From Methylobacterium sp. Leaf112 (GTDB taxonomy: Bacteria > Pseudomonadota > Alphaproteobacteria > Rhizobiales > Beijerinckiaceae): 64,000 nt of DNA. The stretch spans positions 829-64,828 of the forward strand of contig NZ_LMNG01000001.1 of NCBI RefSeq assembly GCF_001423295.1, given 5' to 3'. Below are positions 1,066 to 4,184 of this stretch, piece after piece (position 1 is the first letter of the stretch; each line of letters opens with the position of its first letter). The notes under the pieces are model-generated. The model saw nothing but the letters and a program-made list of their open reading frames with translations. It had not been told where the DNA came from and searched no databases. The translations under genes were made by a program, and so were the position numbers.

Positions 1066-1450
1066 GCCCAGGCTCCACAGCCGTTTTCCGATCCAAGACT
1101 ATCCCGTGTCCCGCGCCGGGAAAACGCGGGTCGGTCGATGCTCGTGCGCCGACTGCGACGGCCTTGTTGAGCTACGAGATCGATTCGATGGAACGACGGC
1201 GGTCGGATGGATCCGCTCCCACCGTCGAGTCCCTCCGAGATCGGCAGGCTTTTTGGGGATCGGCAGGCTTTTTCGGGATCGGCAGGCTTTTTTGGGATCG
1301 GGATGCCCCTCGGGGATCGCAGCGGCTCCCGGCCGAGAGGAGCGCGCACGGAGGCTGGTCCACGCGCGTCCGGACGATGACCGTATGTCCGACCTCGCGC
1401 ACCGGCAGCGTTGGTCCATCCGCTCGTGGACCGAACCGTCGGTTCTCGCC
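1066..1450. other. Intergenic region upstream of the AraC gene
   Basis: About 385 bp between the AraC start and the left end of the IS1182 element. Apart from the 19-bp tandem repeats at 1239-1295 no convincing gene or promoter was seen. The overlapping reading frames on both strands show no recognisable family. Confidence 0.5.
1239..1295. repeat. Tandem repeat, 3 x 19 bp
   Basis: Three contiguous copies of a 19-bp unit starting gatcggcaggcttttt occupy 1239-1257, 1258-1276 and 1277-1295, differing only near the 3' end of each unit. A degenerate fourth copy (gatcgggatgcc) follows. Non-coding context; see the finding on short tandem duplications. Confidence 0.9.
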
Positions 1451-2799
1451 CCTGGCTGTGTCAAAACGCCGATGATGGTAGCTTTCTCCTGGTCGACCGG
1501 AGGCTGGCATGGGACGGTTTGTTGTCGGTGCCGAGCGCGATCAGACGACGCTGTTTCCGCCGTGTCTTGAAGACTGGATCGCCGAGAACAACCCGGTCCG
1601 CGTGGTCGATGCCTTCGTGGATGCGCTGGGTCTTGGTGCGCTCGGCTTCGCGGGCGTCGATGCGGCACGGACGGGACGACCGGGCTACCATCCCGCAGCC
1701 CTCCTGAAGCTCTATGTCTACGGCTATCTCAACCGGGTCCCGTCGAGCCGGCGTCCGGAGCGCGAAGCGGGCCGCAACGTCGAGGTCATGTGGCTGACGG
1801 GTCAGCTGTCGCCCGATCACAAGGCCATTGCCGAGTGCCGCCGTCAGAACGGACCGACCATCGGGCGTGCCTGTGCCCGTTTCGTCGCCTTGTGCCGCGA
1901 GATGGGCCTTCTGACGGGAACGCGCGTCGCGATCGACGGCTCGAAGTTCAAGGCGGTCAACAACCGCGACCGCAATTTCACACAAGGCAAGCTCGACCGG
2001 CGTCGCAGCAGATCGAGGAGAGCGTGTCGCGCTACCTCTCGCAGCTCGACACGGCCGATCGTCAGGATCCCACACCTGAACTGGCCGCCAAGGTGGTGCG
2101 GCTGAAGGAGAAGATCGCCCGCCTCGGGCAGGAGATGAAGCGGTTGGCCAGCCTGGAGGAGCAGGTGAAGGCGGCGCCCGACCGGCAGATCTCGCTGACC
2201 GATCCCGACGCGCGATCGATGGCAACCAGCGGGCGCGGGTCGGGCATGCCCACCGTTGCACCACGGTGGAGAAGGGTCTGACGCTGCATCGTCACTGGAC
2301 GAATGCTTGCTCGGCCTGCCCGATGAAGACGGACTGTACGAATGGCAATGAGCGCCGGGTGACGCGCTGGGAGCACGAGGACGTGCTGGAGACGGTGCAG
2401 CGCCGCTTGGACGGCGACCCGCTGGCCATGCGGGTCCGGCGCGAGACGGTCGAGCATCCCTTCGGCGCGCTCAAAGCGCGAATGGGGGCCACGCACTTCC
2501 TGACCAAGACGCTGCCGCGCGTCTCGACCGAGATGGCGCTCCAGGTCCTGGCCTACAATCTGACGCGGGTTCTCAACATCATGGGAAGCCGGAAGCTCCT
2601 GGCGGCGATCCCCACCTGAGCGGGGGCTTGGATCGCTCGCCGAAGAGGCCGAGAGACCGCCCAGGAAACCTTTTCCACCAAGAACTGGCCGTCTCCCGAC
2701 CGTAAGAACCTGTTCGACGCGATGAACAGCCCGTTCTCGCGAGACCGGGACGTCTCCCGATCGCAAAAGCCCCAATCCCCGAGTTTTGAAACGGCCTGG
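1451..2799 (+). mobile_element. Degenerate IS1182-family insertion sequence
   Basis: The element is defined by the IS1182-type transposase remnant (1509-2619) and a pair of imperfect inverted ends: cctggctgtgtcaaaacgcc at 1451-1470, against the reverse complement of 2779-2799, about 15 of 21 positions alike. No clear target-site duplication is visible. IS1182 elements usually carry a transposase of about 450-480 residues. This copy is shorter because of an internal deletion, and it cannot transpose on its own. The ends were identified by eye and the exact borders may be off by a few bases. Confidence 0.6.
1509..2619 (+). pseudogene. IS1182-family transposase, frameshifted and internally deleted
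   Basis: Three frames must be joined. The start ATG at 1509 gives MGRFVVGAERDQTTLFPPCL and the first catalytic-Asp block (VAIDGSKFKAVNNRDRNF). The frame shifts at about 1995, continuing with the linker helix (VVRLKEKIARLGQEMKRL) and DPDARSMATSGRGSG. A second break near 2250-2266 jumps to GLTLHRHWTNACSACPMK and the C-terminal block with the catalytic Glu (RRETVEHPFGALKARMG). The region normally lying between RGSG and GLTL, about 100 residues including the second catalytic Asp, is missing. Inactive remnant. Confidence 0.85.
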
Positions 2800-3083
2800 A
2801 CCAGACCGAGATGAAGGATTGGACTTGTTGATCGTGAGCGACACAGCGCTTGCCCACGACACCAGCCTGGCACGGATCGCGGGGACCGGCGAACCGGAGT
2901 GAGACTACAGCGTTCGATAACGGTCTCGGCTTTGCTCGCTTCCTCGGCTGGCTACCGAGGCGCGCAGCGGTCGATGAACGCTCCCCCGGTTCGGCATGGT
3001 ATCGGCGTCTCTTGGTTTCCAACGCAAAGCCTGCGCGACTTTGCTATCTTGGCTTGTGGTCGATCATGCTGGTCGACGGAGAA
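2800..3083. other. Intergenic region before the avidin-like gene
   Basis: About 285 bp with no recognisable coding family. It must contain the promoter of the avidin-like gene, but no convincing -35/-10 pair was identified. Confidence 0.4.
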
Positions 3084-3097
3084 AGGGGAGCGAGATG
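3084..3097 (+). promoter_or_regulatory. Shine-Dalgarno and ATG of the avidin-like gene, followed by an in-frame stop
   Basis: A strong ribosome-binding site (aggggag, 3084-3090) precedes an ATG at 3095 with ideal spacing. The ATG is in frame with the avidin-like coding sequence, but its third codon is TAA (3101-3103). One base change from AAA, CAA or GAA would explain it. The next usable in-frame start is TTG 3113, which has only a poorly spaced AAGG ahead of it. Confidence 0.7.
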
Positions 3098-3112
3098 CCA
3101 TAAGAAAAGGCT

Positions 3113-3475
3113 TTGGCACGAGCGACGGCAAGGACGGGAACCTCGGTCGATTTCGCGGGGACGTGGGTGAACGAAGGGGGTTCGGAAGTCGTCCTTGTTC
3201 AGACGAACGATGCGCTTTCCGGCACATATGAGAGCGCCGTCAGCAGCGGAGGTATAAAGGCCGCCGGTACCCTCGTCGGCTATGTCGATGGAGACTTGAT
3301 CGCCTTCACCGTGCACTGGGAGGCCTTTCAGGCGATCACTTCCTGGGTGGGGCAGCTTCTTCCGAACGCGCCAAGGGAGACAATCAAAACGCTTTGGCAG
3401 ATGACCAAGCAGGTCGACTCCGGCGAGGAATGGGCATCGATCAACGCGGGATCGGACACTTTCACTCGCAGATGA
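3113..3475 (+). CDS. Avidin/streptavidin-family biotin-binding protein, start region damaged
   Basis: 120 residues from TTG 3113 matching the single eight-stranded barrel of avidins. Aligned by eye to streptavidin, most biotin contacts are kept: N20 and S24 (GTWVNEGGS), Y39 and S41 (GTYESAV), W69, T76 and W78 (ITSWVGQ), W95 (TLWQMT), the subunit-swapped Trp W107, and D115 (GSDTF). Losses are the N49 equivalent (Ser), S88 (Ala) and L124 (Asn). No secretion signal is visible, unlike most avidins. The original start appears to be ATG 3095, now interrupted by TAA at codon 3, so the gene is either silenced or expressed weakly from TTG or by re-initiation. It stands alone between two IS remnants. 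Confidence 0.8.
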   Translation: MARATARTGTSVDFAGTWVNEGGSEVVLVQTNDALSGTYESAVSSGGIKAAGTLVGYVDGDLIAFTVHWEAFQAITSWVGQLLPNAPRETIKTLWQMTKQVDSGEEWASINAGSDTFTRR

Positions 3476-3522
3476 CCGTTGCCGGGATCCGGGCGGTGTT
3501 CAGGCGCCGCACATCTTATCAG

Positions 3523-4184
3523 GAGCCTGTTTGAGGTCCTCCGCCGGTCGTCCCCATCTGTCTCGTGTGCAAACACGACGTCCGCCTGGCGGGGTGGAGT
3601 GGAGAGCAGATGTGGGTGGACCCACATCGGACGCGTCACGAGACGTGCCTGAAGGACATATCGCCCGGCATCTGCGGACGGGTGGCGCCCGGCGAGGGTT
3701 GCCGGCTGGCTTTCCGCCTTGGCGCACGGTCTATGGCTGGTTCCGGCGCTGGACCGACAAAGGCCTGTTCGAGGCGCTGATGCGGGCTCTCGCCCGCCGC
3801 CAGCGACGGCGCTGCGGACGCCGCCCGGAGCCGCGGCCGGCGATCGTCGACACCCAAAGCGTCAAGTGCCTCGGTGTGCGCGGGCGGCGCGGCTACGATG
3901 GGGCCAAGAGTGGTGCCAAGAGTGGGGGGCAAGAGAGTGGTGCAACCGGCACGCCATGCGCCATCGCGTCGTCAAGAAGCAGCCGGACCAGAAGGGCCTC
4001 GTCGTGCGGGAGCGGCGCTGGGTGGTCGAGCGCAGCTTCGGCTGGATGAGCCATCGGGGCGGCTTGCACCGCGAGCGCGCCGGTCGGCCCGATGTCGCAA
4101 CAGGGCGTCTTGCCTGCGCCGCCAGCCTCATGGCCGCCAACGCCCTCAACAATCCAGCCTGACAATAAGATCTCAAACAGGCTC
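3523..4184 (+). mobile_element. Degenerate IS5-family insertion sequence with matching ends
   Basis: Terminal inverted repeats are clear: gagcctgtttgaggtc at 3523-3538 and gatctcaaacaggctc at 4169-4184, 15 of 16 bp complementary. A TCA occurs next to both ends (3519-3521 and 4183-4185), but the register is not exact, so a target duplication is uncertain. The element is about 660 bp, shorter than an intact IS5-type copy (about 850 bp), and its transposase is broken. Confidence 0.8.
3610..4162 (+). pseudogene. IS5-family transposase remnant
   Basis: Pieces of one transposase lie in three frames: MWVDPHRTRHET from 3610, then PPWRTVYGWFRRWTDKGLFE through RPAIVDTQSVKC and RGRRGYDGAK in a second frame, then KQPDQKGLVVRERRWVVERS, RAGRPDVATGRLACAASL and a stop at 4162 in a third. 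The block between YDGAK and VVKK is deleted and replaced by a short direct repeat (about 3903-3926, ccaagagtgg units). The N-terminal part is also shortened. Non-functional. Confidence 0.8.

Follow-up and report, generated by a model that had tools for sequence, protein, structure and literature searches.

The closest described systems are the bacterial avidins covered in the survey of Laitinen et al. 2021 (PMC8033661). That survey recognizes 11 clades with Methylobacterium among the avidin hosts, reports a signal peptide in about half of the putative bacterial avidins, and places avidin genes on plasmids, with mobile elements and near recombination genes. Because both traits are already reported there, neither mobility nor a missing signal is new for this family. 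A search of its main text found no mention of a motif, a pseudogene or phage; our literature searches found nothing that joins bacterial avidins to prophage and, for avidin as a biotin-binding protein in Methylobacterium, only the 2021 survey. What bacterial avidins do in nature is not settled. A second parallel concerns translation, as a published account of axe-txe (PMC8708949) describes a two-codon mini-ORF with a positive effect in cis.

Here we analyse an avidin gene in a 64,000-nucleotide stretch of the Methylobacterium sp. Leaf112 genome (the window; Table 1). The gene is a broken additional member of the known avidin family, and we consider it likely that this is a signal-less avidin gene which was acquired horizontally, lies between insertion sequences and was recently silenced by a TAA at codon 3.

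The avidin frame and its interrupted start

Table 1. Features of the avidin locus, in positions of the window
Feature	Position	Strand	Remarks
Degenerate insertion sequence; Pfam finds DUF772 and DDE domains in its transposase	1438..2804	+	Adjoins the avidin islet at its right end
Avidin islet of about 0.7 kb, flanked by two insertion sequences	2805..3522	+	G+C 0.60 versus 0.70 for the window
Shine–Dalgarno (SD) region of the ancestral start	3078..3090	+	-6.6 kcal/mol with the anti-SD
ATG CCA TAA: ancestral start, codon 2 and nonsense codon 3; now a two-codon open frame	3095..3103	+	
Avidin frame from codon 4 through its stop	3104..3475	+	Opens E-K-A-L; without further stop or frameshift
Frame open from TTG (codon 7)	3113..3475	+	Only standard start still yielding the whole barrel
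Insertion-sequence remnant, broken transposase frames	3523..4184	+	Weak DDE transposase matches

From codon 4 onwards the frame matches Pfam PF01382 (Avidin) with E=4.8e-25 and 88.6 bits (cut-off 24), over nearly the whole profile (positions 2-116 of 116), and the 120-residue protein is about 30% identical by sequence match to solved avidins, streptavidin and xenavidin included, which bears out the avidin-like protein proposed in the initial annotation. An AlphaFold2 model built from an input of five sequences predicts an eight-stranded avidin barrel (mean pLDDT 84.8) that begins at residue 16, with residues 1-7 at low confidence. The top matches in a structure comparison of this model were avidins (Z up to 15.0, 102 residues, rmsd 1.8), and the failure to fold as an avidin barrel that the initial annotation had named as a possible refutation is thus not what is predicted. 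Profile match, modelled barrel and contact residues all place the gene in the Avidin family; an uninterrupted frame from the native start is absent owing to the TAA at codon 3. We took such a frame as the mark of a working member and not of descent, and the gene is probably an avidin family member by descent and a pseudogene by state. It is the only avidin in this 4.69 Mb genome. With its start conserved and little sequence ahead of the barrel, the predicted product seems to be without a secretion signal and, if intact, would most likely be a putative biotin-binding barrel retained in the cytoplasm.

The ancestral ATG (3095-3097) is preceded by a purine-rich stretch whose duplex with the anti-SD falls in the 5% tail of random window positions. 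It is followed by CCA (3098-3100) and TAA (3101-3103), and ATG, TAA and TTG 3113 are all in phase with the TGA (3473-3475) that closes the avidin frame, so that the well-placed SD and ATG with CCA-TAA in frame behind them were correctly read at the outset. Among the matches listed by profile searches that covered the N-terminus, a TAA occurred once, inside the window match, and in none of the others. TTG 3113 has no detectable SD, the best anti-SD duplex upstream of it being +0.2 kcal/mol.

The N-terminus and biotin pocket in relatives

The comparison of codon 3 with orthologues, proposed in the initial annotation, was made with six relatives, each from a different genome or contig and each with its own ATG at the site equivalent to 3095. 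The nearest of them is a Chitinimonas homologue (L016, 67% identical), and another comes from an alphaproteobacterial metagenome-assembled genome (MAG; L017, 63% identical over the best segment). Their N-termini all carry M-x-x-E-x-(A/S)-L, L031 being longer by one residue: MRQEHAL in L016 (codon 3 CAA, codon 7 CTG), MRLEKSL in L017 (CTC, CTC), MQQEKAL in L019 (CAG, CTG), MKHEVAL in L002 (CAC, CTC), MLHEKAL in L042 (CAC, TTG) and MPMLEKAL in L031 (TTA, offset by one, and TTA). Codon 3 is therefore a sense codon in 6/6 (Gln, Leu, Gln, His, His and Leu, respectively), codon 4 is GAA or GAG throughout, and codon 7, the site of TTG 3113, always encodes leucine. The window reads MP*EKAL, carrying the motif right after its start save for the stop, and the four codons after the TAA (GAA AAG GCT TTG) are identical in L042. 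Anti-SD duplexes of -5.9 to -10.2 kcal/mol precede the starts of L016, L017, L019, L002 and L042; that of L031 is weaker (-2.0 or -4.0 kcal/mol at its two possible starts). The motif is variant or missing in L020 (MTLDSQL), L054 (MKPAELA) and L055, and these were excluded from the six-of-six count. A shared TAA with a conserved downstream start, which the initial annotation had offered as a refutation, was sought in the relatives and not found. Because the six relatives align from their own ATG and have sense at codon 3, ATG 3095 is the ancestral start and the TAA a copy-specific nonsense mutation.

The claim that most streptavidin biotin contacts are kept also held, since N20, S24, Y39, S41, W69, T76, W78, W107 and D115 are identical across an alignment of six sequences and W95 is present in the window. 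In streptavidin numbering the contact equivalents present are N23, S27, Y43, S45, W79, T90, W92, W108, W120 and D128; W120, here W107 and kept, accompanies tetramers in known avidins. The equivalents of S88, L124 and L25 differ. By alignment with streptavidin, A74 occupies the S88 site and N111 the L124 site. Alanine at the S88 site recurs in L016, L017, L019, L002 and L031, and asparagine at the L124 site in L016, L017 and L019. Both are traits of near relatives. The initial annotation called them unusual; we rejected the view that they are peculiar to the window gene, because both residues occur in its three nearest relatives (L016, L017 and L019). Its own oddity is a glycine at the L25 equivalent, where L042 has Met and the other five relatives have Leu. 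A separate observation is that the MAG homologue (L017:1881-2258), whose frame is otherwise intact, has Cys at the streptavidin W108 position, the site of W95 in the window.

Surroundings and origin of the gene

The insertion-sequence graveyard described in the initial annotation was confirmed on both sides of the gene. The left element (about 1438-2804), which we take to be IS1182-like, carries a 1-base frameshift and, between 2248 and 2249, has lost 329 internal bases. Intact copies in congeners are up to 95% identical and have these 329 bases in addition, and five such copies were aligned with it. The right remnant, presumably IS5-like, is bounded by 16-nt terminal inverted repeats (3523-3538 and 4169-4184). 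The GC3 of the avidin gene is 0.70, versus 0.93 for a neighbouring chemotaxis gene. No homologous copy of the islet (2806-3518) was found in 109 other congeneric genomes, which gave only matches of about 26 and about 41 bases. Any Avidin match at all was present in 15 of 111 congeneric genomes, the window's own included; the best of the other 14 is L002, 35% identical to the window, and the remaining 13 fall into a divergent group (L003-L015). The gene looks imported because of this lack of a homologous copy in the sampled congeners and its low G+C. The sporadic distribution and a nearest relative in Chitinimonas point the same way, and horizontal gain is the plain reading. A scan of 2800-3700 for sigma-70-type promoters and terminators found none, and no shared neighbour, operon or partner gene was seen by eye around L016, L017, L033, L034 and L035.

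Other avidins were met among congeners and viral contigs. The divergent group L003-L015 (13 congeneric genomes) is a second set of avidin-like genes that start M-F-(D/E/S/A)-G and by eye are without Trp equivalents of W79, W108 and W120, and several of its members have an AT-rich upstream stretch in common. The L047 copy on plasmid pCMU01 is absent from the PLSDB gene table. By eye, the neighbours of the congener avidin L002 are a large gene containing a P-loop-like stretch, a recombinase-like gene and a transposase-like gene (L034:8157-10473), surroundings that are possibly a mobile island. The relative L031 (L031:4971-5357), possibly prophage cargo, comes from a 39-kb contig of a viral collection, where an endolysin gene (phrog_7, E=1.1e-59) is close by. 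Another viral-collection contig holds an avidin (L032:4896-5381) with a hydrophobic N-terminus resembling a signal peptide; it adjoins a BstA-like gene (phrog_6287), and an integrase (phrog_1) is also on the contig. PHROGs has no family for avidins, annotated phage records gave no avidin match, and a viral-contig search gave no avidin contig beyond that of L031.

Age of the stop and alternative readings

None of the 27 positions invariant in the six relatives is changed in the window, and the same test applied to each relative in turn gave 0-6 changes. These seven sequences were compared with the window entering at codon 4 and codons 1-3 outside the count; L003-L015, L020, L028-L030, L032, L043-L045, L046, L054 and L055, too distant or without an alignable start, were left out. 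No further damage was found across the 123 codons after the TAA. Drift was simulated with random substitutions, 60% of them transitions; placing 15 in the 369 bases (0.041 per site) spared the 27 residues and introduced no stop in 5.1% of 3000 runs. Given the 0/27 changes and this simulation, neutral substitutions would have stayed below about 4% per site if selection ceased with the stop, a rough bound that assumes the 27 positions were otherwise free to change. Pairwise dN/dS was uninformative because synonymous sites are saturated. Since the relatives read through codon 3 where this copy has a stop, the copy was probably silenced only recently, and the loss would be recent on an evolutionary scale.

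Under silencing, an avidin gene without a signal would have been gained horizontally, it now lies between insertion sequences, and codon 3 would have mutated to a stop in the Methylobacterium copy. Ribosomes loading at the intact SD and ATG 3095 would then make a two-residue peptide and terminate, because of which the gene would be silent or nearly so, with little or no protein. Against this, the frame after the stop is preserved to the same degree as that of intact relatives, as would also be expected of a gene in use, the TAA is known from one assembly, the drift bound is loose, and in at least one published case (PMC8708949) a two-codon mini-ORF can enhance translation of the gene behind it. 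The main rival is a trickle of protein from TTG 3113: ribosomes terminating at TAA 3101-3103 may re-initiate nine bases on and yield an avidin minus six pre-barrel residues. The undamaged 123 codons, the unchanged invariant positions, the low-confidence residues 1-7 ahead of a barrel predicted from residue 16 and the axe-txe precedent (PMC8708949) all speak for re-initiation, which we nevertheless regard as rather unlikely. The TTG is without an SD, its use would drop N-terminal residues that the six relatives conserve, and the codon is Leu-7 in these relatives, so TTG 3113 is an ordinary leucine codon by descent and not a conserved start. Translation from TTG 3113, one of the two outcomes allowed for in the initial annotation, is accordingly the weaker branch.

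An error of sequencing or assembly, with the gene in fact intact, would agree with the single assembly and with a gene that otherwise looks whole; the genome, in 34 contigs, is however scored at 100% completeness and 0% contamination, and there is no long homopolymer at this stretch, all of which makes such an error improbable. Still harder to credit is ATG-CCA-TAA as a selected regulatory minigene controlling avidin translation. Its intact SD stands before a two-codon frame in phase with the gene, and PMC8708949 supplies a published analogue, but none of the six start-aligned relatives has the minigene, because of which a plain mutation suffices. Of the interpretation first given, the recent nonsense mutation is thus supported, with codon 3 sense in 6/6 and the remainder undamaged, and the pocket changes are not supported as peculiar to this gene.

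If the gene was silenced as we propose, its horizontal gain followed by a clean and recent loss would suit a dispensable or costly gene. A cytoplasmic biotin trap should burden a cell that makes its own biotin; in the host genome bioB scores above the family cut-off and BioY has no match. The conserved N-terminus (six sequences) is the one lead beyond a broken family member, and surveys of the barrel only would miss it. We tentatively suggest, while thinking it less than probable, that signal-less cytoplasmic avidins with M-x-x-E-K-A-L are spread sporadically by mobile elements over Alpha- and Betaproteobacteria, with one contig classed as viral beside an endolysin gene, and that the N-terminus has its own role as an assembly or targeting handle, the window copy being cut exactly there.

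Compared with avidin and streptavidin (PF01382), the window gene is alike in its whole-domain match, predicted barrel and contact residues, and differs in having no apparent secretion signal, a frame broken at codon 3, and Ala at S88, Asn at L124 and Gly at L25. It resembles the homologue of Chitinimonas sp. BJB300 (L016) in the start and the WASINAGSD block as well as in overall identity, whereas L016 has a sense codon 3, a strong SD and, by eye, no flanking insertion sequences in the 8.1 kb seen. With the signal-less bacterial avidins described in PMC8033661, it shares the missing signal, a Methylobacterium host and the association with mobile elements.
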